Assembly (NCBI RefSeq): GCF_014201905.1
Contig: NZ_JACHFM010000005.1
Location: forward strand, 248,001 to 312,000
Source: Amaricoccus macauensis
GTDB lineage: Bacteria; Pseudomonadota; Alphaproteobacteria; Rhodobacterales; Rhodobacteraceae
Length of the DNA: 64,000 nt
Direction: 5' to 3'
Positions 3,399 through 20,748 of the stretch are shown one piece after another. Position 1 is the first letter of the stretch; the number at the start of each line of letters is the position of its first letter. Under the pieces are notes generated by a model, which was not told where the DNA came from, ran no database searches, and was given only the letters and a program-made list of their open reading frames with translations. The translations under genes were made by a program, and so were the position numbers.

Positions 3399-4826
3399 AT
3401 GGCGATCATTTTTGGAACGAATGGCAACGAACTCAATGGCTGGACGGCGCTCACGGGCACGCGCAAGGCCGATGTGATCTACGGCCTTGGCGGCGATGAC
3501 TACCTTTCAGGTGGTGGCGGCAACGACACGCTCTACGGCGGTGAGGGCAATGACACCCTGGTGGGAGGTGATGGCCGCGATCTGCTCGATGGCGGCGAGG
3601 GCCTCGACCTCGTCTCCTATTCCCCGAACTCCGGCCCCGTGCGGGTGGACCTGCAGAGCGGCTTCGCCAGCTTCCCCGGCACGAACTGGCCGCGGGAAAC
3701 CCTGATCAGCATCGAGGGAGCGATCGGTGGGCAGGGCCGGGACACGTTTATCGGCAATGGCGCCGGAAACCTTTTCTATGGCGAACAGGGCAACGACACG
3801 CTGATCGGCAACGTGGGTGCCGACACGCTTGATGGCGGCAGGGGCAACGACAGCCTCGACGGCGGCAATGGGCTTGATCTGCTGATCGGCGGGCTTGGCA
3901 ACGACACGATGCGGGGCGGCCTTCACAATGACACCTTCCTGATCGACGGCCACAGCAACTGGGACGGCAGGGAGATGTCGTTCACCGATACCGGCGCCGA
4001 TCTGATCGACGGCGGCGCGGGCACGGATACGCTCTACATCCCCGTGGAGGTCGTCTGGCCTGACGTGGACGTCAGTGAATATTACCCGGCCTTCGCCACG
4101 GTGACGGCCAATCTCGGCACGGGTACGCTCAGGATCACCGACGGCAGCCTGTCGCGCCTCGTCTCCATCGAGAACATCGAAACGGGCGCCGGCGACGACA
4201 CGATCACCGGCAGCGCCGCGGACAACCTGATCATCGCAGGCGATGGTGCGAACACGGTCGACGGCGGCGCGGGCAACGACACGATCATCGGTGGGGAATG
4301 GGGCTTTGCCGGCTACACCGAGGTGCTGCGGGGCGGCGCGGGTGATGACCTGATCTACGGCAATGGCTCGCAGATTGAAGTGGAAACCGTCTACTACACC
4401 GAACTTGGCACTGACAGGCTGATCGGCGGTGCGGGCAACGACACGCTGCACGCCGGAAACGGGCAGGTCGAGATGACTGGCGGCACGGGTGCCGACACCT
4501 TCATCTTTACCGACGAGATGACTTTCATTCAGGCGTTCGCGCCTGAATACTGGTCCTTTGCCAGCAAGACCATCACCGATTTCAATCGGCAGGCTGGGGA
4601 CATGATCCACTTCGAGACCGAGGAGGACTTCACGTTCGTGGGGCAGACGCGAGCGAACCAGATGGATGTGGGTGAGATCGGCTGGCATCGCGACGGTCGC
4701 GATGTGGTGATCCAGGCCCACGTCAATGAACCCGAGATGTCGCTCTATCATGAGGACGAGTTCCTCGAGATCCGCCTCGCCAACTACTCCGGCACCCTGA
4801 ACGCGAACGCCTTCGACCTGGGCTGA
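3399..4826 (+). CDS. RTX calcium-binding repeat protein, probable type I secretion substrate
   Basis: A 475-residue acidic protein made almost entirely of hemolysin-type nonapeptide repeats (GGxGxDxLx). Dense blocks occur near residues 30-70 (for example [11 protein letters not shown]), 125-180, 265-300 and 345-365, and a serralysin-like C-terminal segment contains [17 protein letters not shown]. Such repeats bind Ca2+ in a beta-roll and fold after export through a type I system; there is accordingly no N-terminal signal peptide. No enzymatic domain is visible, so it may be a structural or adhesive exoprotein. No T1SS ABC/MFP genes are nearby, so an exporter would have to be encoded elsewhere. 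Confidence 0.93.
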
Positions 4827-5214: not shown

Positions 5215-5727
5215 TCAGAGCCGCCCGTCGAGCAGCAGGAAGCCGGGGATCCAGCCAGTGGCGATGCCGGCGAAGATCGTGAAACTCGCGGTCGGGGAGA
5301 GGATGTTCTTCTTCAGCGCCAGCAGCAGGAAGTACATGAACCAGAGCACGCCCCAGATCACCCAGTTGATCGCCATCCAGACATCGAGCGAGGTCTGCAT
5401 CGTCGCGAACCCACCGAGGGCAACCGGCACGGTCGTGATCGCGACGAAGAGGCTGAACCAGCCGAGACCGCGTCCATCGACGGCGACGACGCGGTTGTAG
5501 GCCACCCAGAAGTAGGTCGTCGTGAAGAGCAGCGTGAGCGCCGCGCCGCGCACCGAGGCGAGGTTCGCGCCCGGCCCGAAGGCCGTGTAGATCACCACCG
5601 CCAGCGTCGCGAACCCCGAGACGACATTGATGACGACAATCTCGCGGTCCTCGATCTTGCCGTGCAGCCACAGGCCGTTCAGGAACAGCACCGCGCCGAC
5701 GTAGAGCAGAGCGAATCCGAGAAGCAT
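5215..5727 (-). CDS. AmiS/UreI family urea/amide channel
   Basis: A 170-residue integral membrane protein with about six hydrophobic segments, matching the AmiS/UreI family in length. It begins MLLGFALLYVGAVLFLNGLWL; the central TTTYFWVAYNR segment and the late INWVIWGVLWFMYFLL helix fit the family. Members are inner-membrane channels for small neutral amides or urea. Placed between formamidase and FmdB genes, it most plausibly admits formamide or another short-chain amide. It is separated from fmdA by 55 bp that include a hairpin. Confidence 0.9.
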   Translation of the reverse strand: MLLGFALLYVGAVLFLNGLWLHGKIEDREIVVINVVSGFATLAVVIYTAFGPGANLASVRGAALTLLFTTTYFWVAYNRVVAVDGRGLGWFSLFVAITTVPVALGGFATMQTSLDVWMAINWVIWGVLWFMYFLLLALKKNILSPTASFTIFAGIATGWIPGFLLLDGRL

Positions 5728-5782: not shown

Positions 5783-7009
5783 TCAGCTCGTGGTGGCGAC
5801 GGCGACGTCGGGCACCATCTTGCGGGGCCCGTCGGCGTTCGGACGGATATCGAAATCGAAGATCGCCGTCGGGATCGCGAGGGTGGCGCAGACGTTCGGG
5901 ATGTCGACGATGCCGGCGATCCGCCCCTCGACGGGCGCCGTGCCGAGGATCATGTAGGCCTGTTCGCCGGAATATCCGAACTTCTTCAGGTACTCGATGG
6001 CGTTCAGGCAGGCGCGGCGATAGGCGACGTGGGCGTCGAGGTAATACTGCTCGCCGGTGTGCTCGTCGACCGAGATGCCCTCGAAGATCAGGTAGTCGTC
6101 GAAATGCGGGTCCACCGGGCTCGGCTTGAAGATCGGATTGGTGATCGCGTACTTCGCCATGCCGCCCTTGATGATGTCGACCTTGATGTCGATCCAGCCG
6201 GCCATCTCGATCGCGCCGCAGAAGGTGATCTCTCCGTCCCCCTGCGACCAGTGGATGTCGCCCATCGAAAGGCCGCCGCCCTTCACGTAGACCGGGAAGT
6301 AGACCTTGGAGCCGCGCGACAGGTTCTTGATGTCGCAGTTGCCGCCATGCTCGCGCGGCGGCACCGTGCGCCAACCCTCGCCGGCCGCGGCCTCGGCGGC
6401 GGCGCCCTTCATCTGGCCCATCAGCGCGGTCGGGGCGTAGGGCGGCGCGGCGAGCGGCGGCACCCGGTTCGGGTCGGTCGCGATCAGCGCCGCCTCGCGC
6501 CGGTTCGCCTCGGCGAGGAGCTTGTGGTCGGGCAGGCAGCCGATGAGCCCGGGATGGACGAGGCCCGGATAGCGCACGCCGGGAATGTGCCGCGACGTGG
6601 TATAGATCCCTTCGAAGTCCCAGCACGACTTGACCGCGTTCGGATAGTGCTCGGTCAGGAAGCCGCCGCCGTTCTCCTTGGCAAACAGACCGTTGAAGCC
6701 CCATTCCGAGCCCTGGAGCGCGCCGATGTCGAGGATGTCGACCACGAGCAGATCACCGGGCTCCGCGCCCTCGACGCCGAACGGACCCGACAGATAGTGC
6801 ACGCGGGTCAGATCCACGTCGCGGATGTCGTTGGCGCTGTCGTTGTTGCCGATCTGGCCACCGGTCCAGTCGTAGCACTCGACCCGGAACACGTCGCCGG
6901 GCTTGAATGTCTCGACCATGGGGATGTCGGGATGCCACCGGTTGTGGGTCTTGATGTCCTGCTCTTCCGGCGCCTTGTTCAGGTCGATCTTGAACGCGGT
7001 CTTCGGCAT
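5783..7009 (-). CDS. fmdA: Formamidase (acetamidase/formamidase family)
   Basis: A 408-residue FmdA_AmdA-family amidohydrolase, which cleaves formamide to formate and ammonia in the cytoplasm. Diagnostic segments include HNRWHPDIPMVETFKPGD near residue 22, GDLLVVDILDIGALQ, the PREHGGNCDIKNLSRGSKVYFP block near residue 220, and IHWSQGDGEITFCGAIEM. Its length is normal. It is the first gene of a minus-strand run with an amide channel and FmdB, and is transcribed divergently from an OmpR-type response regulator whose promoter region it shares, so amide-responsive control is likely. Confidence 0.95.
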   Translation of the reverse strand: MPKTAFKIDLNKAPEEQDIKTHNRWHPDIPMVETFKPGDVFRVECYDWTGGQIGNNDSANDIRDVDLTRVHYLSGPFGVEGAEPGDLLVVDILDIGALQGSEWGFNGLFAKENGGGFLTEHYPNAVKSCWDFEGIYTTSRHIPGVRYPGLVHPGLIGCLPDHKLLAEANRREAALIATDPNRVPPLAAPPYAPTALMGQMKGAAAEAAAGEGWRTVPPREHGGNCDIKNLSRGSKVYFPVYVKGGGLSMGDIHWSQGDGEITFCGAIEMAGWIDIKVDIIKGGMAKYAITNPIFKPSPVDPHFDDYLIFEGISVDEHTGEQYYLDAHVAYRRACLNAIEYLKKFGYSGEQAYMILGTAPVEGRIAGIVDIPNVCATLAIPTAIFDFDIRPNADGPRKMVPDVAVATTS

Positions 7010-7192: not shown

Positions 7193-7909
7193 ATGCAGGG
7201 CAGAATCCTGGTGGTGGATGACGATCGCCGGCTCTGCGGGTTCCTCGCGCGCTTTCTCGCCGGCGAAGGCTTCGCTCCGACCCAGGCGCACGATGGTGCA
7301 GCAATGCGCCGCGCTCTGGCTGATCTGCCCTACGATCTGGTGCTTCTCGACCTCGGCTTTCCGCGCGGCGACGACGGGCTGGCACTCGCGCGCGCCCTGC
7401 GATCGCAATATGACGCGGCGCTGATCGTGGTGACCGGCAAGACCAGCACGATCGACAAGGTGGTCTGCCTCGAACTCGGGGCGGACGACTATGTCACGAA
7501 GCCGTTCCAGCCGCGCGAACTGCTCGCCCGCATCCGAGCGGTGCTGCGTCGCGTGACCCGTTCCGCGGTCGTGCCGGAGACCGAGGCCGACACGATCCGT
7601 GTCGACGGGTGGCGGGTCGATCTCGCGCACCGCGAGGTCTACGCGCCCTGCGGAGTCGCCGCCGGCCTCACCAGCAAGGAGTTCGACATCGTCGCAGCGC
7701 TCGCGCGCCGACCCGGGCGGGTGCTGTCCCGGGACCAGCTGCTCGATCTCGTGGCGAACCGGGCGTGGACGCCGAGTGACCGGAGCGTCGATGTCCTCGT
7801 GGGCAAGGTGCGGCGCAAGATCGGCGACGAGGGGCCGAACCACCGCATCATCCGCACGGTCCGCGGCATCGGCTACGTCTTTGCGCCGGAATCCGTTGCG
7901 CGCGGCTGA
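7193..7909 (+). CDS. OmpR/PhoB-family response regulator
   Basis: A 238-residue two-domain regulator. The receiver domain (about 1-120) has the acidic pocket VVDDD, the phosphoacceptor Asp53 in VLLDLGF, the VVTGKTS switch segment and the conserved Lys in VTKPF. A winged-helix output domain follows (about 135-232) with LTSKEFDIVAAL, RDQLLDLV, RSVDVLVGKVRRKI and TVRGIGYVF. A good ribosome site (GGGAGGA) precedes the ATG. It is divergent from fmdA and convergent with a hybrid kinase gene whose end overlaps its own by 37 bp. Its likely role is control of the amide genes in response to the adjacent kinases. Confidence 0.93.
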   Translation: MQGRILVVDDDRRLCGFLARFLAGEGFAPTQAHDGAAMRRALADLPYDLVLLDLGFPRGDDGLALARALRSQYDAALIVVTGKTSTIDKVVCLELGADDYVTKPFQPRELLARIRAVLRRVTRSAVVPETEADTIRVDGWRVDLAHREVYAPCGVAAGLTSKEFDIVAALARRPGRVLSRDQLLDLVANRAWTPSDRSVDVLVGKVRRKIGDEGPNHRIIRTVRGIGYVFAPESVARG

Positions 7910-9402
7910 AGCGCGGCGCGCAACGCGCGCGACAGGGTGGCGAGATCGACGGGCTTCAGGAGGCACGCGACCCCGGCGACCGGACTGCCCGGCGCCCGTG
8001 CCGTGTCGGCGGTGAGAAGCAGCGCTGCGAGGTCCGGCAGCCGGGCGGTCGCCTCCCGCAGCAGCTCGACCCCGCTCCGTCCCCCGCCGAGGCCCACATC
8101 GGTCACCATCAGGTCGATGGCGGAGGCGCCGATGATCCCGAGCGCCTCGTCGCTGCTCGCCGCCACGGCGACCCGGTAGCCGAGATGCGCGATCTGACGG
8201 CGCAGGGTGCGCCGGACGTCGGGATCGTCCTCGACGACAAGCACCCTCTCTGATCGGCCTCCCGACACGGGAGCCGCGACCCGAGCGGCCGTCGCGGCAC
8301 CGCCCTCCGCCGGGGCCACCGGCAGCCGGATCGTCGCTGTCAGGCCAAGCCCCGGCGGGCTCGCGAGCAGGAGCGCGCCGCCTGATCGCTCGGCGAAGCC
8401 CGCGACCATCGTGAGCCCAAGACCGAGACCCCGGCCGGAGGACTTGGTGGTGATGAACGGCTCCACCGCCCGCGTGAGCAAGTCCCGGGGCATCCCCGGC
8501 CCGGTGTCGGACAGCGCGAGATCGACGAACGCTTCGTCAGATCGCACCGTCACCGTCAGGGTGCCGTCTCCGGCCATGGCGTCGCGGGCATTGATCGCAA
8601 GGTTGATCAGGCTCGCCTCGAGCTGACTGCGGTCGACCAGCACGGCAGGCACCTCGGGCGGGATGTCGAGCACCACCCGGACGTTGGCCCCGAGCGCCCG
8701 TTCGAGCAGCCGCCAGGTCGCGGGAAGCGTCCCACCGAGATCCGTCGGCTCCGTGTGCAGCGGAGCGGCCCGGGCGTGCGACAGCAGCCGGCTCGTCAGC
8801 TCCATGCCGCCCCGGACCGCCCCGAGTGCGTCGTCCACCAGCTCGCGCAAGACCGGCTGGCCCTCCAGCCGCTCGTCGAGGAGTTCGAGGTTGCCGAGGA
8901 TCACCGCCAGCGTGTTGTTGAACTCATGCGCCACGCCCGCGCCGATCTGGTCCAGTGCATCGAGCCGCTGGGCCTGCCGCAGCCGGTTCTCGGCCGCATC
9001 GCGCTCCGCGACCAGCCGCAGGCGCTCGAAGCACCGGGCAAGCGTCCGGTCGAGGTCGTAGGAGAAGAACGGCTTGATCAGGAAATCGTAGGCGCCTGCC
9101 TTCAGCGCCTCGACGGCGGTCTCCATCGAGGCATACGCCGTGACCATGACGACGATCATGTCGGGCGCCATCCCATGGAGCTTCCCGACCAGCGCGACGC
9201 CGTCCTCCCGCCCGAGCCGGACATCCACGAGCGCAACGTCCGCGGTCCAGTTCGCGAGGATCTCGCAGGTCGAGACCCCGTCGTGGGCGACGCGCGCCTC
9301 GTGCCCGTCGAGCGCGAGGAGGCGGACGAGGCTTTCCGCGAAGTCCACGTCGTCATCGACGACCAGCAGCCGCCACGGCCGGCCCGGAAACTCAGCGGGC
9401 AT
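7873..9402 (-). CDS. Hybrid histidine kinase, REC-HisKA-HATPase-REC
   Basis: A 509-residue soluble hybrid kinase. An N-terminal receiver (about 8-125) has phosphoacceptor Asp60 in LVDVRLG and KPF. The kinase core carries the H-box His159 in AHEFNNTLAVI, an N-box INARDAM and G-boxes DTGPGMP and GRGLGLGL. A second receiver (about 385-505) has VVEDD, VTDVGLGG and KPV. No sensor or membrane segment is present, so input probably arrives through the N-terminal receiver. The ATG at 9402 overlaps the end of the permease-kinase gene by 11 bp, suggesting coupled translation and a phosphorelay between the two proteins. Confidence 0.9.
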   Translation of the reverse strand: MPAEFPGRPWRLLVVDDDVDFAESLVRLLALDGHEARVAHDGVSTCEILANWTADVALVDVRLGREDGVALVGKLHGMAPDMIVVMVTAYASMETAVEALKAGAYDFLIKPFFSYDLDRTLARCFERLRLVAERDAAENRLRQAQRLDALDQIGAGVAHEFNNTLAVILGNLELLDERLEGQPVLRELVDDALGAVRGGMELTSRLLSHARAAPLHTEPTDLGGTLPATWRLLERALGANVRVVLDIPPEVPAVLVDRSQLEASLINLAINARDAMAGDGTLTVTVRSDEAFVDLALSDTGPGMPRDLLTRAVEPFITTKSSGRGLGLGLTMVAGFAERSGGALLLASPPGLGLTATIRLPVAPAEGGAATAARVAAPVSGGRSERVLVVEDDPDVRRTLRRQIAHLGYRVAVAASSDEALGIIGASAIDLMVTDVGLGGGRSGVELLREATARLPDLAALLLTADTARAPGSPVAGVACLLKPVDLATLSRALRAALQPRATDSGAKT

Positions 9403-12016
9403 CGGCCGGCCCCGACTGTTGCCGCGGGATGTGCAGTGCGATCGTGGTCCCCTCGCCCGGCCGGCCGCCAAGCTCGATGCGGCCGCCGTGGACAGTGACC
9501 ACCCGCTGGACGACCGACATGCCAAGGCCGACCCCGTAGGCCTTGGTGCTGTAAAGCGGCTCGAAGACCCGCTTCCGCTCCGCCTCGGAGAGGCCGACCC
9601 CATTGTCGGACACCGAGAGAACGACGGTGCTGGCATCGGCCCGGGTGCGAACGACGATCCGCCCGCCGCCTTCCGGATGGGCCTCGATGACGGCGTGCCG
9701 GGCATTGTCGAGCAGGTTCACCACCGCCTGCCGCATGAGTTCGGCATCGGCCTCGATCGTGCAATCGACCCCGAGATCGAGCTCCACGAGCGCGGCTGCC
9801 GCGTGTTCGCCCACCTGCGCCGCCAGCCATCGGTCCACGGCGAGCGGGGCAAACGCCGACTCGCGCCGGCGCGAGAAGTCGAGCAGCTCGTCGATGATGC
9901 GCGAGCATCGCTGAACGCTGCGACGGATGCGGGTGAATTCAGGGCCCTCGCGCGCCTCCGCGGGGAGTGACCGGTCGAGGACGTCCACCGAATTGGCGAG
10001 GGCCCCGAGAGGATTGCGCAGCTCGTGACTGACGCTGGCGGTCAGCGTGCCGATCGCCGCGAGGCGCTCCGTGCGGGCCAGTTCCGCCTGTGTCTCGCGC
10101 AGCTCCTCCAGCGACGCGACGAGCTCGCGTTCGGCAAGCTCCCGGCTTTCGTGGGACAGCACGATCCACCAGGCGCCGATCCCGAGCAGCGGCAGCAGCG
10201 CGACGAAGACCCTGAGGAGCATCTGGTCGTTGGTGTAGGGCGCGGGATCAATGTGCAGATCGGCCATGCGGTAGGTCAGCAAGAAGACCGCGGCCGACAC
10301 CGTCCAGAGCACCAGCGTCACGCCGGTCACCTTGGCCACCCGCTGCATGGGGCGGAGCGCGAAGCGCTGCCGCAGCGCGTTCCCCGGAGCGACGCTCGGC
10401 CGTCCGTGCGACGGCGCCTTGCAGACGTCGTGGCAATGCGTGTCGAGACTGCAGCAAAGCGAGCAGATCGGACCGTCGTAGAACGGACAGAAGGCCATGT
10501 CCGGCTTCTCGTAGGCGTGGTCGCAGATCCGGCACTGCACGAGCGCCCCGCCGCGCTCGGCATAGTCGATCGGCCGGGCGAGATAGGTCTGGCCCCGCGT
10601 CACGACGCCGATCAGCACCGCCGACGCCAGCGCGACGACGAAGGCGAGCGGCGCCGACCATGCCTGCAGCATGGGGCCGGCGACGCCCGCATAGCAGGAA
10701 AGCCCGACGACCGAGGCGAGCGCCATGGAGCCGCAGCCGACCGGGTTGAAGTTTCGCAGGTAGGCCCGCTTGAACTCCGGCACCGCGGGGCTGATCCGCA
10801 GCGGCTTCAGGATCGCGAGATCAGCGACCAGCGACCCGAGCCAGGCGGTGGCAATGTTGCCATAGACCGCCAGCACCAGTTCCAGCGTGTCGAAGATGCC
10901 GAGGAGCATCAGCAGGAGCGAGATCAGGATGTTGAACACCAGCCAGGCCACGCGCCCCGGGTGGTAGTGCGTGACCCGCGAGAAGAAGTTCGACCAGGCG
11001 AGCGAGCCCGCGTAGGCATTCGTCACGTTGATCTTGATCTGCGACACCAGCACGAAGACCGTGGCGGCCGCGAGTGCAGTCTCGGGGTTCGCGAAGATGT
11101 ACCCGTAGGCGAGCGCGAACATGTGGATCGGCTCGAGCGCCTCGGCGGCGGGGCGGCTGGCCGAGAGGACCATGACGGCGAGCAGGCTGCCCCCGAGCAT
11201 CTTCAGGCCGCCGACCACGATCCAGCCCGGACCCGCCGACAGCATGGCCACCCACCAGCGCCGTCGGTTCGCGCGCGCGAGGTCGGGCAGGAAGCGGAGA
11301 TAGTCGACCTGCTCGCCGACCTGCACCGTCAGCGAGCAGAGCACGCCGATCGCGCCGCCGAAGGCCAGCACGCTGAACCCTGTCTCGGCCCCGGTGAACG
11401 CGGACCACTCTGCCAGAACCCCGGGCTCGCGTGCGAGGATGAAGAGAAAGGGAGCGACCAGCATGATGATCCAGAGCGGCTGGGAGATCATCTGCAGGCG
11501 ACTGAGGACAGTCACGCCCATCGCGGTGAGCGGGATGATGACGAATGACGAGACGACATAGCCGATCACGATCGGAACGTCCGCATAGACCCGCATGGCC
11601 TGCGCCATGATCGCCCCTTCGAGGGCGAAGAAGATGATGGTGAAGGTGGCATAGATCAGCGAGGTGATCGTCGAGCCGATATAGCCGAACCCGGCCGCCC
11701 GGGTCAGCAGGTCCATGTCGATGTTGTATCGGCTCGAGTAGTAGGCGATCGGCAGGCTGGTGACGAAGATGAACAGCGACACGCACACGATTGCCGGGAT
11801 CGCGTTCGCGAAGCCGTAACGCAGCGTGATCACCCCGCCGATCGTCTCGAGAGCGAGGAAGGCGATGCCACCGAGTGCGGTGTTCGCGATGACGAACGGC
11901 GTCCAGCGGCGGAACGACCTCGCCGCGTAGCGCAGCGCATAGTCCTCGAGGGTCTCGTTCGCCACCCATGATCTGTAGGATCGGATCGCCGGCCGTTGCT
12001 CGGCCGTGCGCGACAT
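9392..12016 (-). CDS. NCS1 permease / Cys-rich cluster / histidine kinase fusion sensor
   Basis: An 874-residue membrane sensor. Residues about 1-480 form a complete NCS1-type purine/cytosine/hydantoin permease (many hydrophobic helices, including a FALEGAIMAQAM segment). A Cys-rich cluster follows from Cys495 (CRIC, then CPF, CSLCC, CHDVC), resembling a zinc-binding domain, then two more membrane helices and a kinase core with H-box His664 in SHELRNPLG, N-box LLDNARHA and G-boxes DNGVGLS and GVGLGMS. The start at 12016 (MSRTAEQR) is supported by an AAGGGGGG ribosome site. Transporter-kinase fusions are known (CbrA uses an SSS transporter); here an NCS1 permease beside formamidase suggests sensing of an amide, hydantoin or nucleobase. 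It probably phosphorylates the adjacent regulators. Confidence 0.88.
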   Translation of the reverse strand: MSRTAEQRPAIRSYRSWVANETLEDYALRYAARSFRRWTPFVIANTALGGIAFLALETIGGVITLRYGFANAIPAIVCVSLFIFVTSLPIAYYSSRYNIDMDLLTRAAGFGYIGSTITSLIYATFTIIFFALEGAIMAQAMRVYADVPIVIGYVVSSFVIIPLTAMGVTVLSRLQMISQPLWIIMLVAPFLFILAREPGVLAEWSAFTGAETGFSVLAFGGAIGVLCSLTVQVGEQVDYLRFLPDLARANRRRWWVAMLSAGPGWIVVGGLKMLGGSLLAVMVLSASRPAAEALEPIHMFALAYGYIFANPETALAAATVFVLVSQIKINVTNAYAGSLAWSNFFSRVTHYHPGRVAWLVFNILISLLLMLLGIFDTLELVLAVYGNIATAWLGSLVADLAILKPLRISPAVPEFKRAYLRNFNPVGCGSMALASVVGLSCYAGVAGPMLQAWSAPLAFVVALASAVLIGVVTRGQTYLARPIDYAERGGALVQCRICDHAYEKPDMAFCPFYDGPICSLCCSLDTHCHDVCKAPSHGRPSVAPGNALRQRFALRPMQRVAKVTGVTLVLWTVSAAVFLLTYRMADLHIDPAPYTNDQMLLRVFVALLPLLGIGAWWIVLSHESRELAERELVASLEELRETQAELARTERLAAIGTLTASVSHELRNPLGALANSVDVLDRSLPAEAREGPEFTRIRRSVQRCSRIIDELLDFSRRRESAFAPLAVDRWLAAQVGEHAAAALVELDLGVDCTIEADAELMRQAVVNLLDNARHAVIEAHPEGGGRIVVRTRADASTVVLSVSDNGVGLSEAERKRVFEPLYSTKAYGVGLGMSVVQRVVTVHGGRIELGGRPGEGTTIALHIPRQQSGPADAR

Positions 12017-12444: not shown

Positions 12445-13218
12445 ATGAGCGTCAGGACCGCTGAGACGCGGGCGAACGGGGTGGCGATCCCTTCGGGGGC
12501 GCAGAGTGCCCGCGCGCTCATCGATCTTCGGAATCTCATCACTGAAGGCGAAATTTCGCCGGGAGAACGTTTCACCGAAGCGCAGCTGGCCAAGCGGCTC
12601 GGCATGTCGCGCACGCCGATCCGGGCCGCGATCCAGCACCTGCGCGAGGAGGGGATGATCGAAACCCTGTCGGCAGGCGGCTACACCGTCCGCGGCTTCC
12701 AGATCCTGGAGATCGGCGAAGCGATCGAGCTTCGCGGCATGATCGAGGGCCTGGCAGCGCGCCTGCTGGCGGAGCGCGGCACGAAGCCGGAGGACATGGC
12801 GAGGCTCGAGGGGATCGTTGCCGGCATCGACAGCCTACTCGACCAGCCGAGGTTCACCGCGACCGACATCGCGACCTATACCAAGCTCAACGCCGAGTTT
12901 CACGACTCGCTGGCGGAGGCAACCGCAAGCACGCTGCTGATCCAGGAGACGCGACGGGCCAATTCGCGCCCCTTCGCCTTCGCGAGCGCGCTCGTGCACG
13001 TCCACCAGGACGAGGAAACCGCCCGGCGCCACCTCGTCGTGGCGCAGGACCAGCATCGGGCGGTGGTCGAGGCCATCCGCGGCCGGGAAGGCGCCCGTGC
13101 GGAGGCGATCATGCGCGAGCACGCGCGCCTCTCATACCGCAACCTGACGACCGCGCTGAAGTCACGCGCCGCCATCGGGAGCATCAAGGGAGCGGGACTG
13201 ATCCAGCGGATCGGATAG
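12445..13218 (+). CDS. GntR/FCD-family transcriptional regulator
   Basis: A 257-residue regulator. The N-terminal winged helix (about 22-92) contains ALIDLRNLITEGEISPGERF, EAQLAKRLGMSRTPIR and LREEGMIE; the C-terminal FCD domain (about 105-235) contains the ELRGMIEGLAARLLAE helix, a KLNAEFHDSL metal/ligand motif and QHRAVVEAI. The last His-containing helix is MREHARLSYRN. A GGGAGGAAGGG ribosome site precedes the ATG. It sits directly before the ABC/P450 operon on the same strand, so it most likely controls that operon and itself through the GGTATACC sites upstream. Confidence 0.92.
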   Translation: MSVRTAETRANGVAIPSGAQSARALIDLRNLITEGEISPGERFTEAQLAKRLGMSRTPIRAAIQHLREEGMIETLSAGGYTVRGFQILEIGEAIELRGMIEGLAARLLAERGTKPEDMARLEGIVAGIDSLLDQPRFTATDIATYTKLNAEFHDSLAEATASTLLIQETRRANSRPFAFASALVHVHQDEETARRHLVVAQDQHRAVVEAIRGREGARAEAIMREHARLSYRNLTTALKSRAAIGSIKGAGLIQRIG

Positions 13219-13276
13219 CCGCTTCCTGCAATCACCACGACGCGGCAGGAATAGCCGCCTTCTCCGGGGAAATCGT

Positions 13277-14455
13277 ATGAATCGACGCAACCTGCTTTGC
13301 GGCGCGGCACTCGCTGTATCCGTCGTCATGTCCGGCTGGCCCGCCCTCGCGGCGGAGCCCCTGAAGGTCGGGCTCATCCTGCCGATGACCGGCCCCTTTG
13401 CCTCGACCGGCCGCCAGATCGAGGCGGCGGCGAAGCTCTACATCGCCGAGCACGGCAGCGAAGTGGCCGGCCGCGAGATCGAGCTCATCGTGAAGGACGA
13501 TGCCGGTGTCGCCGATGCGACCAAGCGCCTCGCGCAGGAGCTGATCGTGAAGGAGAAGGTCGAGGCGATCGCCGGCTTCGGCCTGACGCCGCTGGCGCTC
13601 GCCGCGGCGCCGCTCGCCACCCGCGCCAAGGTGCCCGAGATCGTCATGGCGGCGGCGACCTCCTCGATCACCGAGCAGTCGCCCTATGTGGTGCGCACCA
13701 GCTACACCACGCCTCAGGTTACCTCGAAGATCGCCGAGTGGGCCGCGAAGGAGGGGATCAAGTCGGTCGTGACGGTCGTGTCGGACTATGGCCCCGGCAT
13801 CGACGCGGAAACCACCTTCGCCAAGACATTCGGCGCGACCGGCGGGCAGGTCGTCGAGTCCCTGCGGGTTCCGCTTGCCAACCCCGACTTCTCGCCTTTC
13901 CTGCAGAAGGTGGCCGACGCCAAGCCCGACGCGATCTTCGTCTTCGTGCCGTCGGGCGTCGGCGCCCCGTTCATGAAGCAGTACGTCGAGCGCGGTCTCG
14001 ACACGACCGGCGTCCAGCTGCTCGCCGACGGCGGCATCACCGATGACGACATCCTGAACTCGATGGGTGACCCGGCGCTGGCGGCAATCACCGGCTTCCA
14101 CTATTCGGCCGCTCACGACAGCCCCGAGAACAAGGCCTTCGTCGAGGCGTTCAAGGCGGCAAACGACGGGATGCGACCGAATTTCATGGCGGTCGGCGGC
14201 TACGACGGCATGCACCTGCTCTATGCGGCGCTCGAGAAGACCGGCGGCAAGTCGGACGGCGAGAGCCTGATCGAGGCGATGAAGGGCCTGGCATGGGAGA
14301 GCCCGCGCGGTCCGATGCAGATCGACCCGGAGACCCGTGACATCGTTCAGAACGTCTACATGCGCAAGGTCGAGCGCGGTGCGGATGGTGAACTCTGGAA
14401 CGTCGAGATCGAGACGTTCCCCGCCGTGAAGGATCCGGTGAAGGCAGGCCTCTGA
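13277..14455 (+). CDS. ABC transporter substrate-binding protein, branched-chain amino-acid type
   Basis: A 392-residue periplasmic binding protein of the Peripla_BP_6 (LivK-like) family. A Sec signal peptide runs from MNRRNLLCGAALAVSV to about residue 25 (cleavage near PALAAEP). The mature protein opens VGLILPMTGPFASTGRQIE, typical for the family, and includes AATSSITEQSPYVVRTSYT and VGGYDGMHLLYAALE. With two permeases and two ATPases downstream it completes an importer. The interspersed P450 genes suggest the ligand is an aromatic or terpenoid carboxylate rather than an amino acid; this is inference. Confidence 0.93.
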   Translation: MNRRNLLCGAALAVSVVMSGWPALAAEPLKVGLILPMTGPFASTGRQIEAAAKLYIAEHGSEVAGREIELIVKDDAGVADATKRLAQELIVKEKVEAIAGFGLTPLALAAAPLATRAKVPEIVMAAATSSITEQSPYVVRTSYTTPQVTSKIAEWAAKEGIKSVVTVVSDYGPGIDAETTFAKTFGATGGQVVESLRVPLANPDFSPFLQKVADAKPDAIFVFVPSGVGAPFMKQYVERGLDTTGVQLLADGGITDDDILNSMGDPALAAITGFHYSAAHDSPENKAFVEAFKAANDGMRPNFMAVGGYDGMHLLYAALEKTGGKSDGESLIEAMKGLAWESPRGPMQIDPETRDIVQNVYMRKVERGADGELWNVEIETFPAVKDPVKAGL

Positions 14456-14461
14456 CCCGCC

Positions 14462-14475
14462 GGCCGCTTGCGGCC
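14462..14475 (+). promoter_or_regulatory. Hairpin directly after the binding-protein gene
   Basis: GGCCGC-TT-GCGGCC forms a 6-bp hairpin starting 7 bp after the stop codon of the substrate-binding-protein gene and before the first P450 gene. Such intra-operon hairpins often protect the abundant binding-protein message or attenuate downstream genes. Confidence 0.4.
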
Positions 14476-14555
14476 ATCGCTCGGCAGCCAATTACCGGGT
14501 TCGCGCGGAGGAGCATTTCCTTCAAGCGGCCCGGAAGCTCCCCAGGAGGAAAACA

Positions 14556-15758
14556 ATGCGTGTCACGGCGGCGGAAACGCTCCCCACCCTCGATTTCGAT
14601 CCCTTTGACATCTCCTATTTCGCTGACCCCTACCCCGACCAGGAGCGCCTTCGCGAAGCGGGGCCGGTGGTCTGGCTCTCGCGCTACGGTGTGCGGGCGG
14701 TCGCGCGCTACACCGAGGTTCACGCGGTCCTGAATGACTGGCAGACCTTCTGCTCCAGCCGCGGCGTCGGGCTGAGCGATTTCGCGGTAGAGAAGCCGTG
14801 GCGCGACCCCAGTCTCGTCCTCGAGACCGACCCGCCGGAGCACGACCGCGCCCGCGCCGTCCTGCAACGGGTCGTGTCACCGATCGTCATGCGGCGGCTG
14901 CGCGACAACATGGTCGCGAAGGCCGATGCGCTGGTTGCCGAGCTGGTCGCACGGCGCGAGATCGACGGCATCCGCGACCTCGCGCAGGCTTTCCCGCTTT
15001 CGGTCTTTCCCGACGCGGTCGGCCTTGTCCACGAGGGCCGGGAGCACCTGCTCCCCTACGCCGGCCTCGCCTTCAACGCCTTCGGGCCGGACAACGAGCT
15101 CCGGCGCGAGGCGCTGGCGCGCGCCGCACCGCATGTGGCCTGGGTGACCGAGCAGTGCCGGCGCGAGAATCTTGCGCCCGACGGCTTCGGCGCGCAGATC
15201 CACGCCGCCGCTGACACCGGGGAAATCACGGCCGACGAGGCTCCGCTTCTGGTGCGCTCGCTCCTGACGGCCGGCCTCGACACGACGGTGAACGGCATCG
15301 GCGCGGCGCTCTACTGCATGGCGCGCTTCCCCGACGCCTTCGCGAGGCTTCGCGAGAAGCCGGCGCTGGCACGGGGGGCCTTCGAGGAGGCGATCCGCTT
15401 CGAGAGCCCGGTGCAGACGTTCTTCCGCACCACCACCCGCGAGGTCGAGCTCTCCGGCGCGGTGATCCCCGAGGGCCAGAAGATCATGATGTTCCTCGCT
15501 GCCGCGAACCGCGATCCACGGCACTGGCAGGATCCCGACACCTACAACATCGAGCGGCGCACCTCCGGCCACGTGGGGTTCGGGTTCGGAGTTCATATGT
15601 GCGTGGGTCAGCTTCTGGCACGGCTCGAGGGCGAGGTCCTGCTCGATGCGCTTGCACGCCGTGCCTCTGACATCCGGCTGGCCGGCGAGCCGGTCCGGGC
15701 TTTCAACAATACCCTGCGCGGTCTGGATAGCCTGCCGCTGGTCCTGACCCCGGCCTGA
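14556..15758 (+). CDS. Cytochrome P450 (first of two)
   Basis: A 400-residue soluble bacterial P450 monooxygenase. The I-helix motif TAGLDTTVNG carries the canonical acid-alcohol pair (Asp-Thr) for O2 activation; the K-helix shows EEAIRFESP; the heme loop FGFGVHMCVG places the thiolate at Cys349. The length is normal and there is no membrane anchor. It lies inside an importer operon, between the binding protein and the permeases, and probably takes electrons from the ferredoxin/reductase pair encoded 5 kb downstream. The substrate is presumably the imported compound or a derivative. Confidence 0.95.
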   Translation: MRVTAAETLPTLDFDPFDISYFADPYPDQERLREAGPVVWLSRYGVRAVARYTEVHAVLNDWQTFCSSRGVGLSDFAVEKPWRDPSLVLETDPPEHDRARAVLQRVVSPIVMRRLRDNMVAKADALVAELVARREIDGIRDLAQAFPLSVFPDAVGLVHEGREHLLPYAGLAFNAFGPDNELRREALARAAPHVAWVTEQCRRENLAPDGFGAQIHAAADTGEITADEAPLLVRSLLTAGLDTTVNGIGAALYCMARFPDAFARLREKPALARGAFEEAIRFESPVQTFFRTTTREVELSGAVIPEGQKIMMFLAAANRDPRHWQDPDTYNIERRTSGHVGFGFGVHMCVGQLLARLEGEVLLDALARRASDIRLAGEPVRAFNNTLRGLDSLPLVLTPA

Positions 15759-15828
15759 GCCGCGGGCTCGAACCTTCACTTCACATGTAACGGGCTGGCT
15801 CGCGAAGACGGGCACCAGGGGAATTCCC

Positions 15829-16683
15829 ATGCTCACGATCCTCATAGACGGAATCGCCTACGGCATGCTGCTGTTCGTCCTCGCGTCCGGCCTTGCCGTG
15901 ACGCTCGGACTGATGAACTTCATCAATCTCGCCCACGGCGCATTCGCCATGGCGGGCGGTTACGTCACCGCCCTCCTGATGAACCGCTGGGGCGTGCCGT
16001 TTCTCGCGACACTGCCCTTCGCCTTCCTCGTCCCCGCGCTTGCCGGTGCCTTCGCCGAGAGAACGCTCTACGCCCGGCTCTACCGGCGAAGCCACCTCGA
16101 CCAGGTGCTGTTTTCGATCGGGCTCGTCTTCATGGCGGTGACGGCCACCGACTATCTCTTCGGCTCGCAGCAGCAGCTCGTCCAGTTGCCCGGCTGGCTT
16201 CAGGGCCGTTTCGATCTCTTCGGAATCCCGGTGGGCCGCTACCGCGCCTTCCTGATCGTCGTGTGCAGTGTCCTCGTCATCGGGCTCCAGCTCATCCTGA
16301 ACCGCACCCGCTTCGGCAGCCAGCTCCGCGCGGCGGTCGATGACCAGCGGGTCGCGCGCGGACTCGGCATCGGCGTCGCGGGCATCTTCGCCACGACCTT
16401 CGCGGTCGGCTCCGGTCTTGCCGGGCTCGGCGGGGCGCTCGGCATCGAGATCCTCGGGATGGAGCCGACCTTCCCGCTCAAGTTCATGGTCTACTTCCTG
16501 ATCGTCGTGACGATCGGCGGCACGACCGGCCTCATCGGGCCGTTCATCGCAGCCCTCATCATCGGCGTCGGCGACGTGGCGGGGAAGTACTACGTCCCCG
16601 AGGTCGGCGCCTTCCTCATCTACCTGCTCATGATCGTCATCCTGATCCTGCGGCCCCAGGGGCTCATCGCCCGCGCCCGCTGA
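15829..16683 (+). CDS. ABC permease, LivH type
   Basis: A 284-residue inner-membrane permease with about eight hydrophobic segments. It begins MLTILIDGIAYGMLLFVLASGLAVTLG, and the MNFINLAHGAFAM motif is characteristic of LivH; later come IGGTTGLIGPF and the C-terminal ILRPQGLIARAR. It pairs with the LivM-type permease encoded 26 bp downstream to form the translocation pore of the importer whose binding protein is encoded upstream. Confidence 0.94.
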   Translation: MLTILIDGIAYGMLLFVLASGLAVTLGLMNFINLAHGAFAMAGGYVTALLMNRWGVPFLATLPFAFLVPALAGAFAERTLYARLYRRSHLDQVLFSIGLVFMAVTATDYLFGSQQQLVQLPGWLQGRFDLFGIPVGRYRAFLIVVCSVLVIGLQLILNRTRFGSQLRAAVDDQRVARGLGIGVAGIFATTFAVGSGLAGLGGALGIEILGMEPTFPLKFMVYFLIVVTIGGTTGLIGPFIAALIIGVGDVAGKYYVPEVGAFLIYLLMIVILILRPQGLIARAR

Positions 16684-16709
16684 CCCCAAAGCCCCGAGGA
16701 CTCCCCACA

Positions 16710-17750
16710 ATGCCGACAGACACCCTCACTCAGCCTCCCACCGCGGTCGCGCCGACGACGCAGGGCCTTCACGAACGGGCGCTTCGCAACCTCGGCCGCA
16801 CCGGACGCTGGCGGCCAGCCGAGTTCGTCTTCTGGGCGCTCGCCGCCGCGACGTTCTTCTTCCTGCCTGACCAGCACCTGCTCCTGGGCGAGATCGCCAT
16901 TCTTGGGCTTTTCGCGCTCTCGCTCGACCTGATCCTTGGCTACGCGGGGATCGTCTCGCTGGGTCACGGCGTGTTCTTCGGGGTCGGGGCCTATGTGGCC
17001 GGCCTAATCTCGATCCACATGACCGGCGAGCCCATCACCGGCCTCTTGCTCGGTGGGGTGGCCGCGGCCATCCTCGGGCTCGCGACCGCGCCGCTCCTCC
17101 TGCTGCGCGCGTCCGACCTGACCCGGCTCATGGTGACGCTCGGCATCGCCATGCTGTTCTACGAGGCGGCGAACAAGGCCGCCTGGCTGACCGGCGGCGC
17201 CGACGGCCTGCAGGGCATCTGGATCGACCCGATCTTCGGCCGCTTCGATTTCGACCTCATGGGCACGACTTCCTATGCCTATGCGCTGGTCGTTACCTTC
17301 CTGCTCTTCCTCGTCGCCCGGCGGATCGTCACGTCGCCGTTCGGCCTGTCGCTCGCGGCGATCCGGGACAACCCCATGCGGGCCAACACCATCGGCATTC
17401 CGGTCGGAAAGCGGCTCGTGGCCATCTACACGATCTCCGCGCTCTACGCCGGGATCGCGGGTGCGCTGCTGGCGCAGACGACGATGTTCGTCTCGCTCGA
17501 TGTCCTCGCCTTCCACCGCTCGGCGGACGTGCTGCTCGTCCTCGTCCTTGGCGGGGTCGGCTATCTCTACGGCGGCCTGATCGGCGCGATCGTCTTCAAG
17601 CTCCTGCAGGACACGCTCTCCACCCTGACGCCGCAGTACTGGATGTTCTGGCTCGGGCTCATCCTCGTCGTGATCGTCCTCATCGGCCGCGAGCGCATCA
17701 CCGGCGCGCCGGCCACTCTCTGGAACCGCGTGCGGGGGATGGGCAAATGA
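16710..17750 (+). CDS. ABC permease, LivM type
   Basis: A 346-residue inner-membrane permease. A hydrophilic N-terminal tail of about 45 residues precedes the hydrophobic core; the LilGYAGIVSLGHGVFFGVGAY-like block near residue 75 is the LivM hallmark (GYAGxxSLGH). The AAIRDNPMRANTIGI segment contains the coupling (EAA-type) loop that contacts the ATPases. The stop codon overlaps the LivG-type ATPase start by 4 bp, indicating coupled translation. Confidence 0.94.
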   Translation: MPTDTLTQPPTAVAPTTQGLHERALRNLGRTGRWRPAEFVFWALAAATFFFLPDQHLLLGEIAILGLFALSLDLILGYAGIVSLGHGVFFGVGAYVAGLISIHMTGEPITGLLLGGVAAAILGLATAPLLLLRASDLTRLMVTLGIAMLFYEAANKAAWLTGGADGLQGIWIDPIFGRFDFDLMGTTSYAYALVVTFLLFLVARRIVTSPFGLSLAAIRDNPMRANTIGIPVGKRLVAIYTISALYAGIAGALLAQTTMFVSLDVLAFHRSADVLLVLVLGGVGYLYGGLIGAIVFKLLQDTLSTLTPQYWMFWLGLILVVIVLIGRERITGAPATLWNRVRGMGK

Positions 17751-18499
17751 GCGTGGCCCTGGAGACCATCAACCTCGAGAAGCGCTTCGGCGGCCTCGTC
17801 GCCACCAACAAGGTGAGCTTCCGACTCGCACAGGGAGGCCGCCACGCCCTGATCGGACCGAACGGCGCGGGCAAGACCACGTTCATCAACCTTCTGACCG
17901 GAGTCCTGCCGTCGAACGGCGGACAGGTTCTGCTCAACGGCGAGGACGTGACCCGTCTCAGCCAGCAGCAGCGCGCCCGGCGCGGGCTCGGCCGGACCTT
18001 CCAGATCAACCAGCTCTTCGCGGCCATGACGCCCGTCGAGTCGATCGGGCTCGCGGTCTCCGAGCGGATGGGCGGCGGTGCGGACTTCTGGCGCGGCCTC
18101 GGCACGCGGACGGACATCATCGACGAGGTGCTGGAGCTGCTGGAGCGTTTCCGCCTCACCGACGTGATGGACCATCCGACCGCGCGCCTGCCCTATGGCA
18201 AGCAACGGCTGCTGGAGATCGCCGTGGCGCTCGCGGGCAACCCGCGCGTGCTGCTGCTCGACGAGCCCGCCGCCGGGGTACCGGAAGCCGAACGGCAGGA
18301 GCTTCTCGACACCCTCGCGGCACTGCCAAAGGACGTCTCGATCCTGCTCATCGAGCACGACATGGACCTCGTCTTCACCTTCGCCGACCGGATCACCGTG
18401 CTCGTCAACGGCACCCACTTCGCCGAGGGCACGCCTGCGGAGGTCATGGCCGACCCGCGCGTCCGCGAAGTCTACCTTGGGGAAGAAGAACATGCCTGA
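17747..18499 (+). CDS. ABC transporter ATP-binding protein, LivG type
   Basis: A 250-residue cytoplasmic ATPase of the importer. It shows Walker A GPNGAGKTT near residue 39, the LivG-specific Q-loop region RRGLGRTFQIN, a signature LPYGKQR, Walker B LLLDEPAAG and the H-loop LIEHDMDLV. The C-terminus ends GEEEHA. It overlaps the LivM-type gene by 4 bp and the LivF-type gene by 8 bp, so all four transport genes are tightly coupled. Confidence 0.95.
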   Translation: MSVALETINLEKRFGGLVATNKVSFRLAQGGRHALIGPNGAGKTTFINLLTGVLPSNGGQVLLNGEDVTRLSQQQRARRGLGRTFQINQLFAAMTPVESIGLAVSERMGGGADFWRGLGTRTDIIDEVLELLERFRLTDVMDHPTARLPYGKQRLLEIAVALAGNPRVLLLDEPAAGVPEAERQELLDTLAALPKDVSILLIEHDMDLVFTFADRITVLVNGTHFAEGTPAEVMADPRVREVYLGEEEHA

Positions 18500-19232
18500 G
18501 CTTCTGGAGCTGCGGAGCCTTCGCGCCGGCTATGGCGAGGCGCTGGTCATCCGCGATCTCTCGCTCTCGCTCGCCGAGGGTGAGGCACTGGCGGTGCTCG
18601 GCCGCAACGGCGTCGGCAAGACGACGCTTCTCGACAGCATCATCGGCGTCACCCGCCGCTTCAGCGGCAGCGTCCATCTCGCGGGGCGGGACCTTTCGGG
18701 CCTCCCGCCCGAGAAGCGCGCCGCCGCGGGAATCGGTTGGGTGCCGCAGGAGCGCAACATCTTCCGCTCGCTGACCGTCGAGGAGAACCTTCTCGCCACC
18801 GCCCGGCCAGGGGCCTGGACCCTTGTCCGCGTCTACGAGATGTTCCCGCGCCTCAAGGAGCGCCGTTCCAACATGGGCAACCAGCTCTCGGGCGGCGAGC
18901 AGCAGATGCTCGCCGTCGGAAGGGCGCTCATGCTGAACCCGCGGGTGCTCCTGCTCGACGAGCCGACCGAAGGGCTCGCGCCGATCATCGTCGATCACCT
19001 TCTCGCCTCCATCCGCCGGATCATCCGCGAGGAAGGGATGGCGACGATCATCGTCGAACAGCACGCGAAGAAAATACTCGGGGTGACCGACCGCGCCATC
19101 ATCCTCGACCGCGGCGCCATCGTCCACGAGGCCCCGAGCCGCAGCCTGATCGAGGACCCCTCGCAGCTCGACCTGCATCTCGGCGTCATTGCCAAGTCCT
19201 CCCGCAGCCAAGGAAACATCCATGTCCGCTGA
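18492..19232 (+). CDS. ABC transporter ATP-binding protein, LivF type
   Basis: A 246-residue second ATPase. It has Walker A GRNGVGKTT, the LivF-type GIGWVPQERNIFRSLTVEEN block, the signature LSGGEQQM, Walker B LLLDEPTEGL and the switch region IIVEQHAKK. I chose the ATG at 18492 (MPELLELRSLRAGYGE), since the longer open frame would run deep into the LivG-type gene. Its end overlaps the second P450 gene by 11 bp, which makes that P450 part of the same transcript. Confidence 0.95.
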   Translation: MPELLELRSLRAGYGEALVIRDLSLSLAEGEALAVLGRNGVGKTTLLDSIIGVTRRFSGSVHLAGRDLSGLPPEKRAAAGIGWVPQERNIFRSLTVEENLLATARPGAWTLVRVYEMFPRLKERRSNMGNQLSGGEQQMLAVGRALMLNPRVLLLDEPTEGLAPIIVDHLLASIRRIIREEGMATIIVEQHAKKILGVTDRAIILDRGAIVHEAPSRSLIEDPSQLDLHLGVIAKSSRSQGNIHVR

Positions 19233-20412
19233 GACCGGAACGCTCGCGCCCGTCGACGAGCAGATCACGCTCAAGGATCTGCATGTCGATCCCTACCCGA
19301 TCTACAAGCGCCTTCGGGCCGAAGCGCCGGTGCTGCGCGTGAAGGCCGCCGGACGGACGTTCCTCACCAAGGCCGCCGACACGAAGTTCGTAAAGGACAA
19401 TCCGGCGATCTTCTCGTCGAACGACCCGAACACTCCGATGAAGCCGGCGTTCCAGGCGCACACCCTGATGCGCAAGGACGGGGCGGAGCACCTCTCCGAG
19501 CGGATGGCGATGGCGCCGGCGCTCCTGCCGAAGACGATCCAGGAGGTCTGGCAGCCGCTCTACCGCCAGTATGCCGCCGAGTACCTCGACCGATTGCCCC
19601 GTGGCGAGATCGTCGATCTCCACAAGCAGCTCTCCGCCCCGATCGCGGCGCGTATCCTCGCGCATATCCTCGGCATCCCCGAGGCGACCGACGAAGAGAT
19701 GATCTTCTGGTCGCAGGCGCTCATCGACGGCGCCGGCAATTTCGGCTGGGAGCCCGGTCCCTTCGCAGTGTCCGATCACGCCAATCTCGAAATGAACGCG
19801 CTTCTCGGGAAGGCGGTCGAGCGGGTGCGTGCGGTGCCCGACCACTCCGCACTCTCTGTCATGGTGAATGCCGAGAACCCGATCCCGATGAGCCAGATCG
19901 TCGCTAACATCAAGATCGCGATCGGCGGTGGCATCAACGAGCCGCGCGACGCGCTCTCGACAATCGTCTTCGGCCTGCTGACCGAGCCGGAGCAGCTCGA
20001 GGAAGTCCGCAGAACCGGCAAATGGGGGCAGGCGTTCGAGGAGGGAGTGCGCTGGGTCGCGCCGATCCAGGCTTCGTCGCGCCTCGTCACGGAAGATGTG
20101 GAAATCCGCGGCTGCCACATCCCCCGGGGCGATACGGTGATGACGATTCAGGCGTCGGCCAATCACGACGAAGACCTCTACGATCACCCCGAGCGCTACG
20201 ACGTGTTCCGCACCAGGAATCCGCACCAGGCGTTCGGCTCCGGGCCGCACCACTGCGCCGGCACCCACGTCGCACGGCGGACCGTGGGCGCGGTCATGAC
20301 CGAGATGCTCTTCGAGCGCTTCCCCGGCATGACGCTGCCCGACCCGAGCGTCGTGCAGTGGCGCGGCTTCGGGTTCCGCGGACCGATCAACCTTCCCGTC
20401 ATCCTGAACTGA
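19222..20412 (+). CDS. Cytochrome P450 (second), with unusual I-helix
   Basis: A 396-residue soluble P450. The heme loop FGSGPHHCAG gives Cys345 as thiolate ligand, and a K-helix-like EEGVRWVAPIQ is present. The I-helix reads IAIGGGINEPRDA: aligned on the usual GGxDT motif, Asp becomes Asn and the oxygen-activating Thr becomes Glu, so proton delivery must differ from textbook P450s. The start at 19222 (MSAETGTL) overlaps the LivF-type gene by 11 bp. It is followed 15 bp later by a ferredoxin gene, which makes it the most likely direct partner of that ferredoxin. Confidence 0.94.
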   Translation: MSAETGTLAPVDEQITLKDLHVDPYPIYKRLRAEAPVLRVKAAGRTFLTKAADTKFVKDNPAIFSSNDPNTPMKPAFQAHTLMRKDGAEHLSERMAMAPALLPKTIQEVWQPLYRQYAAEYLDRLPRGEIVDLHKQLSAPIAARILAHILGIPEATDEEMIFWSQALIDGAGNFGWEPGPFAVSDHANLEMNALLGKAVERVRAVPDHSALSVMVNAENPIPMSQIVANIKIAIGGGINEPRDALSTIVFGLLTEPEQLEEVRRTGKWGQAFEEGVRWVAPIQASSRLVTEDVEIRGCHIPRGDTVMTIQASANHDEDLYDHPERYDVFRTRNPHQAFGSGPHHCAGTHVARRTVGAVMTEMLFERFPGMTLPDPSVVQWRGFGFRGPINLPVILN

Positions 20413-20427
20413 ATCGAGAGGTTTCCC

Positions 20428-20748
20428 ATGAAGATCACCTACATCACCGCCGATGGGACCGAGACCGTCGTTGAGGCCCGCGAGGGCGACAGCGTCATGC
20501 AGGTTGCGATCGCCAACGACATCGACGGGATCATCGGCGAGTGCGGCGGCTCGATGATGTGCGCCACCTGCCACTGCTACGTCGATGATGCATGGGCCGA
20601 GAAGACCGGGCCGCAGAACGACGGTGAGAGCGACCTGCTCGACTGCGCGGCGTCCGAGACGAAGCCGACCAGCCGGCTCTCGTGCCAGATCAAGATGAGG
20701 CCCGAATTGGACGGTCTCGTCGTCCACCTGCCGGAAACGCAACTCTGA
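20428..20748 (+). CDS. Putidaredoxin-type [2Fe-2S] ferredoxin
   Basis: A 106-residue adrenodoxin/putidaredoxin-like ferredoxin. Cluster ligands are Cys39, Cys45, Cys48 and Cys86 (CGGSMMCATC ... RLSCQI), the same spacing and numbering as putidaredoxin. It carries electrons from the FAD reductase encoded immediately downstream to one or both P450s. The stop overlaps the reductase start by 1 bp (TGATG). Being soluble and small, it is expected in the cytoplasm as the middle component of a class I P450 system. Confidence 0.96.
   Translation: MKITYITADGTETVVEAREGDSVMQVAIANDIDGIIGECGGSMMCATCHCYVDDAWAEKTGPQNDGESDLLDCAASETKPTSRLSCQIKMRPELDGLVVHLPETQL

Follow-up and report, generated by a model that had tools for sequence, protein, structure and literature searches.

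We analysed a stretch of 64,000 nucleotides (the window) from Amaricoccus macauensis, a member of the Rhodobacteraceae (contig NZ_JACHFM010000005.1, positions 248,001 to 312,000). On its minus strand, one gene encodes a transporter-like domain of the NCS1 fold joined, through a module of eight cysteines and two further helices, to a complete histidine kinase. Genes for formamidase and for an amide or urea channel lie close by. The features of the locus are the following.

9392-12016, minus strand: NCS1-like sensor histidine kinase, 874 amino acids (Pfam, AlphaFold model, fold comparison)
10586-11956, minus strand: NCS1-fold transporter-like sensor domain, residues 21-477
10418-10534, minus strand: eight-cysteine module, residues 495-533 (alignment; complete in 130 of 130 distinct kinases)
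10142-10351, minus strand: two further presumed membrane helices, approximately residues 556-625 (model; membrane nature presumed from sequence)
9863-10051, minus strand: HisKA domain, with phospho-acceptor His664 at 10025-10027 (Pfam, alignment)
9419-9748, minus strand: HATPase_c domain (Pfam)
7873-9402, minus strand: REC-HisKA-HATPase-REC protein, with a presumed ATG at 9402 (Pfam)
7193-7909, plus strand: OmpR-type response regulator, convergent
5783-7009, minus strand: fmdA, formamidase (NF045496, 758 bits; cut-off 500)
5215-5727, minus strand: amiS/ureI-type amide or urea channel (PF02293, 192 bits)

The sensor kinase frame runs from an ATG at 12016 to a stop codon at 9392-9394, and a GTG 36 bases upstream of the ATG is an alternative start. 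The presumed start codon of the REC-kinase-REC gene and the sensor kinase stop overlap by 11 bases. A sequence-only reading of the locus had named AmiS, formamidase, an OmpR regulator and a REC-kinase-REC protein as neighbours; domain and family searches recovered all of them, with one correction to that picture: the OmpR gene lies on the plus strand and converges with the REC-kinase-REC gene.

Both HisKA (residues 656-718) and HATPase_c (757-866) pass their Pfam cut-offs. His664 is invariant in all 44 rows of a kinase-core alignment (the window protein and 43 of 80 fetched loci), which bears out the full core first seen by eye. N767, N771, D804, G808, G828, G830 and G832 are equally invariant, and together with H664 we take them to be the phospho-histidine, N and G boxes. 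The two domains were searched for in the window protein, L028 and L032, and further examples were read as sequence; the kinase status of the long frames surveyed below is taken from their length. The sensor part was aligned in 53 rows (the window and 52 of the 80 loci, hand-picked for spread), where relatives are 53-66% identical to the window protein, the nearest 88%. Truncated or X-containing loci were left out of the rows, and others to limit the size of the set. An AlphaFold model made from 44 aligned sequences (mean predicted local distance difference test score, pLDDT, 78.7) shows a helical domain that ends near residue 472. After it come a small module rich in beta structure (492-524), a helix (556-585) and a long helix (596-683) that continues into the kinase. 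The two extra helices expected ahead of the kinase are seen in the model as well.

Following the transporter-like domain are exactly eight cysteines (495, 498, 510, 518, 521, 522, 528 and 532), invariant in 53 of 53 rows, in agreement with the cluster of about eight reported from Cys495 onwards. The full motif occurs in each of 130 distinct kinases, counted over all loci as domains differing within their first 500 residues, and also in the truncated kinase frames L064 and L085. These 130 include close relatives and are not independent events; they derive from 131 long frames, one of which encodes a permease from Streptomyces, long only as read from stop to stop, and was moved to the permeases. 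Up to four kinases are gapped at cysteine columns in the alignment, and a motif search finds their motif complete.

That the cluster was inserted along with the kinase, as the first description implied, had to be rejected. Stand-alone permeases of the same branch carry it too: among seven of them (a number that leaves out the distant L121, devoid of the module), L153, from Methylovirgula, has all eight cysteines, four keep only CxxC and CSLC, one has five and one has a single cysteine. Since the cysteines are partly or fully kept in permeases, the module belongs to the whole branch, and it is the complete set of eight that accompanies the kinase. The four permeases with half the set keep residues 495, 498, 518 and 521 and have lost 510, 522, 528 and 532; this division suggests two metal sites of four cysteines each, probably for zinc. 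Matches of the module to zinc-finger-type proteins in the PDB (E 3.9 and 2.7) were too weak and were discarded as evidence.

The claim of a complete NCS1 transporter stood as regards the fold and failed as regards direct family matches. Residues 1-579 match no Pfam family, PF02133 included, at E up to 10, and direct searches of Pfam, NCBIfam and PDB sequences give no NCS1 match for the domain, the very outcome that the sequence-only reading had named as speaking against it; at the sequence level, this argues against simple NCS1 membership. The domain nonetheless has the NCS1 fold, and by fold rank it appears to be of this type rather than SSS. Intermediates also reach PF02133 (cut-off 23.5 bits): the stand-alone permease L147, 42% identical, with 38.1 bits and L121 with 35.9 bits. 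L147 itself has no NCS1 match in a PDB-sequence search. The window genome also encodes two canonical NCS1 permeases (L089 and L090), 84% identical, each beside a hydantoinase-B-like open reading frame named by eye.

At the stacking position of transmembrane helix 3 (TM3; Trp108 of CodB, Trp117 of Mhp1), where the NCS1 family mostly has tryptophan (PMC9379551), 120 of the 130 kinases have Phe, 10 have Leu, and all seven stand-alone permeases have Phe. We therefore file the protein in a diverged NCS1-like branch. In an alignment of low identity, the Ser/Thr of the Na2 site in TM8 are replaced by Lys328 (130/130 kinases, 7/7 permeases) and Ile329 (129/130 and 7/7). Glu133 and Asn333 align, at very low identity, with the Gln/Asn pair by which Mhp1 binds hydantoin: Gln121 of Mhp1 has become Glu and the equivalent of Asn318 is retained. 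Few positions distinguish kinases from stand-alone permeases, and the pocket residues examined are the same in both. Residue 56 is Asp in all seven permeases and Leu, Met or Cys in all 130 kinases; residue 57 is Glu in all 130 kinases and Phe or Gln in the permeases. In the model, a helix is interrupted at residues 52-53; we read this as the TM1 break, which places residues 56 and 57 just past it.

A relative of the sensor part is encoded in 517 of the 554 stretches that the genome collection yielded as candidates, so the pattern is not due to chance. The best 80 of these 517 were kept; judged from record titles, they come mainly from Burkholderiales and other betaproteobacteria, with 14 cyanobacterial loci, some Pseudomonas and other gammaproteobacteria, one Vibrio and three alphaproteobacteria. 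Among 397 Pseudomonadota genomes, 59 (about 15%) contain the domain, and apart from the distant L121 all matches lie in frames of at least 894 codons, a length that accommodates the fused form. Of the same genomes, 42 have an FmdA that scores above the NF045496 cut-off: kinase and FmdA coincide in 41, the kinase occurs alone in 18, FmdA alone in 1 and neither in 337 (Fisher p 2e-40). The predicted co-occurrence with fmdA thus holds across the sampled Pseudomonadota, where 41 of 42 FmdA genomes have the kinase. In the window's own family the kinase is rare, present only in the window genome among at least 32 members sampled. This rarity, along with plasmid copies in Paracoccus and Thioclava, indicates horizontal spread.

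The association is also one of position. For 41 of the 64 kinase genes, fmdA is no more than 20 kilobases (kb) away, and for another 16 a urtA is found at a distance of up to 15 kb; seven are near neither among the matches listed (at least 21 urtA places), one of which is in genome G111, where fmdA is on another contig and a contig break may hide the linkage. Conversely, 41 of 45 FmdA genes have a kinase within 20 kb. UrtA (E up to 1e-100) is present in 183 of the 397 genomes, above its cut-off in 154; of the 59 genomes with the kinase, 57 have it (Fisher p 2e-19). In 14 of the 18 kinase genomes devoid of FmdA, a urtA lies within 15 kb, and UrtA scores above the family cut-off in the five such loci examined (L130, L131, L134, L143 and L144). 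Altogether, the sensor usually adjoins genes for the uptake or cleavage of formamide or urea.

Three arrangements recur around the kinase. The first is that of the window, shared by L010 and L011: kinase, REC-kinase-REC protein, convergent OmpR regulator, fmdA and amiS. In the second, fmdA and amiS are divergent from the kinase (e.g. L013, L016 and L020). In the third (L032), the kinase is a hybrid that includes a C-terminal receiver, and urt-like genes form an operon with fmdA in the divergent direction. A Klebsiella plasmid of this third type, L146 (plasmid CP023937), has a LuxR-type regulator; on it, amiF and urtEDCBA are divergent from the sensor kinase and the regulator. CP023937 is a conjugative IncF plasmid that bears the formamidase, urtABCDE and sensor kinase genes near the heat-shock gene clpK; in databases, the kinase is mostly named 'ATP-binding protein'. 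The plasmid locus matches in gene content the urea-transport cluster described for ST307/CG307 plasmids (PMC5506382, PMC13060141), and judging by that content it is presumably this cluster. A word search of the main texts of both papers does not find 'histidine kinase'. In the plasmid collection the domain occurs in 342 Klebsiella records, at least two large ones of which carry a stand-alone permease; in a sample spread over these records, most match at 49.0%.

Urea or amide enzymes also adjoin five of the seven stand-alone permeases, and these neighbourhoods are the best clue to the ligand. The permease stands at the end of a series of urease genes in one Klebsiella record, precedes urease genes on an Acinetobacter ursingii plasmid, is divergent from fmdA-fmdB in Moraxella osloensis, and stands immediately before an aliphatic amidase in Arthrobacter. 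A Methylovirgula plasmid cluster brings together fmdB, fmdA, kinase, regulator, permease and aliphatic amidase. An A. baumannii record has the kinase and a permease side by side in divergent orientation. Two permeases adjoining urease genes (7959-9563 in both L147 and L148) are annotated as cytosine/allantoin permeases; we find it more likely that they are urea permeases.

In both trees that we built, with seven and then six permeases, these form one clade beside the cyanobacterial kinases, nested among kinases. Such nesting would imply loss of the kinase, and transporters may have been re-derived from sensors. In the six-permease tree, a single kinase clade is not rejected by the approximately unbiased test (p-AU 0.116), and the outgroups are very long branches.

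From this evidence, we consider it likely that the window protein senses small amides of the urea type at the membrane, here most likely formamide, with the diverged NCS1 domain as its receptor; proteins of this kind are probably the means by which many bacteria detect formamide or urea. In the mechanism that we propose, the amide would enter the central NCS1 pocket from outside and be bound with the help of Glu133 and Asn333, at the positions of the Mhp1 Gln/Asn pair, while a lysine would occupy the site where other NCS1 proteins hold Na+. Binding would shift the transporter core, and the shift would be relayed by way of the putatively cytoplasmic eight-cysteine module, with its two candidate metal sites, and of both extra helices, to the dimerisation helix bearing His664. 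The phosphate would then go to the REC-kinase-REC protein of the overlapping gene, at its first receiver, to the convergent OmpR-type regulator, or to both, and the regulator would switch on fmdA and amiS, presumably at their promoters. A relay through two receivers, suggested already by the sequence-only reading, is plausible, and the gene order recurs in L010 and L011. Of this picture, the architecture, the NCS1 fold, the conserved residues and the gene linkage come directly from computation; the ligand, the metal, the topology, the direction of the signal, the path of the phosphate and the promoters acted on are inferred.

Several observations weigh against this interpretation. The pocket residues were matched to Mhp1 at the low identity given above, and no significant match came out of a profile-profile comparison with two NCS1 proteins encoded in the window genome, for which the profiles are thin. 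In databases, the stand-alone permeases are labelled as cytosine or allantoin permeases or as hypothetical proteins. Among eight proteins near the A. baumannii kinase-permease pair, NCBIfam recognised no amide gene, and the annotated surroundings of the Streptomyces permease include no urea or amide gene. FmdA is missing from 18 of the 59 kinase genomes. The flanks of the 14 cyanobacterial loci, some of them short, contain no recognised fmdA or complete urt operon; of 13 cyanobacterial genomes, five have FmdA, with four of those matches interrupted by stops. UrtA is found in all 13 at E up to 1e-100, and in 11 above cut-off. Next after the Vibrio relative (L015, 11654-13975) comes a REC-DUF3369-GGDEF-EAL protein, and the sensor may therefore act there on signalling by cyclic di-GMP; the neighbours at the single annotated Thiotrichales locus (L019) are REC and REC-kinase proteins. 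Given these loci and the FmdA-less genomes, ligands may differ within the family.

Could the protein be a true transceptor, its NCS1 part importing the amide as well as signalling? CbrA, which transports histidine (PMC7096432), offers a precedent, and the shared pocket residues would fit; however, Asp56 of TM1, present in every permease, is replaced in every kinase, where Glu57 appears instead, and the kinase often has distinct genes for uptake beside it (AmiS, Urt or a permease). We regard this as rather unlikely. It is improbable that a general nitrogen state is sensed, be it ammonium or how much passes through the adjacent uptake system, instead of the amide itself: the cyanobacterial copies with no recognised amide genes beside them and the repression of the Methylophilus methylotrophus fmd genes by high ammonia (PMC10781810) agree with such a role, but the linkage to formamidase is nearly one-sided, as the 41 of 42 FmdA genomes attest. 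A comparably low probability attaches to the cysteine module being the real sensor, of metal or redox state (e.g. nickel or iron supply), with the NCS1 part as an anchor; the invariance of the eight cysteines speaks for it, while the conservation of the sensor parts with their pocket residues, and the full set in a permease that has no kinase, speak against it. Finally, a nucleobase or hydantoin sensor that regulates nitrogen genes incidentally, ligands that the sequence-only reading entertained beside formamide, is quite improbable: despite the NCS1 fold, the database names of its relatives and the hydantoinase-like frames (judged by eye) beside the genome's canonical permeases, Trp117 and Gln121 of Mhp1 have given way to Phe or Leu and to Glu, most examined loci hold formamidase, Urt, urease or amidase genes, and among those neighbours that were searched or carry annotation, none was recognised as an enzyme for a nucleobase or hydantoin.

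Starting from the amide sensor as the preferred reading, we also put forward, more tentatively, a broader possibility: that these proteins are a widespread, unnamed family of urea and short-chain-amide sensor kinases, built on an NCS1 branch that has given up the use of sodium. Their two-site metal tail would be dispensable for transport and obligatory as a coupler to the kinase, and the shift of the TM1 acid from Asp56 to Glu57 would separate sensor from permease.

Beyond the system, the window carries at 12445-21971 (plus strand) a GntR/FCD regulator, urea-like ATP-binding cassette (ABC) transporter genes, two cytochromes P450 and a pyridine-nucleotide reductase, all co-directional, which looks like a cluster for uptake and oxidation of some compound. 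The ABC-transporter genes (12445-19232, to the right of the kinase) were excluded from the sensor system: the members scanned score under the urea-family cut-offs, none was recognised in L010, and L011 has only a distant ATPase and a reductase of the kind. An RTX-type calcium-binding repeat protein with eight repeat stretches is encoded at 3399-4826 (plus strand).

The main sensors known are the cytoplasmic AmiC/AmiR pair for amides and a Helicobacter chemoreceptor for urea. A receptor in about 15% of sampled Pseudomonadota would fill a gap in this knowledge, and a kinase and a permease set apart by few diagnostic residues make a clean system for learning what turns a transporter into a receptor. 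The fmd genes are induced by formamide and urea; the passages of a formamide review that bear on this include no sensor kinase, and a word search of its text finds 'kinase' once only, for carbamate kinase (PMC10781810). A metformin transporter described in 2026 extends the NCS1 family to guanidine-like ligands (PMC13390362). Among the titles and abstract openings listed, a set with subscription papers mostly outside it, no NCS1-type or formamidase-linked sensor kinase appears.

Kinases fused to transporters are already known, in CbrA and in the ammonium sensor of Kuenenia; the NCS1-type version appears to be new. The Kuenenia protein senses ammonium through an Amt/Rh domain, of a different fold from that of the window protein. 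As an Amt domain joined to a histidine kinase, it likewise employs a nitrogen-nutrient transporter domain as sensor (PMC5764959). CbrA of Pseudomonas, an SSS/SLC5 sensor kinase, has in common with the window protein a LeuT-fold transporter domain fused to a histidine kinase (PMC7096432). The window protein differs from it in that its domain appears, by fold rank, to be NCS1-type rather than SSS, in its eight-cysteine module and two extra helices, and in its linkage to amide and urea genes where CbrA controls histidine and carbon use. With the NCS1 permeases CodB and Mhp1 it has the fold and the equivalent of Asn318 in common (PMC9379551); in contrast to them, its family has Phe/Leu for Trp, Glu for Gln and Lys/Ile for the sodium-site Ser/Thr, and it has a fused kinase and no Pfam match of its own. 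The fmdCABDEF genes of M. methylotrophus and UrtABC/AmiF of Klebsiella combine formamidase with a urea or amide ABC transporter (PMC10781810, PMC5506382, PMC13060141), and the Klebsiella plasmid locus of that make-up carries the sensor kinase and its regulator.

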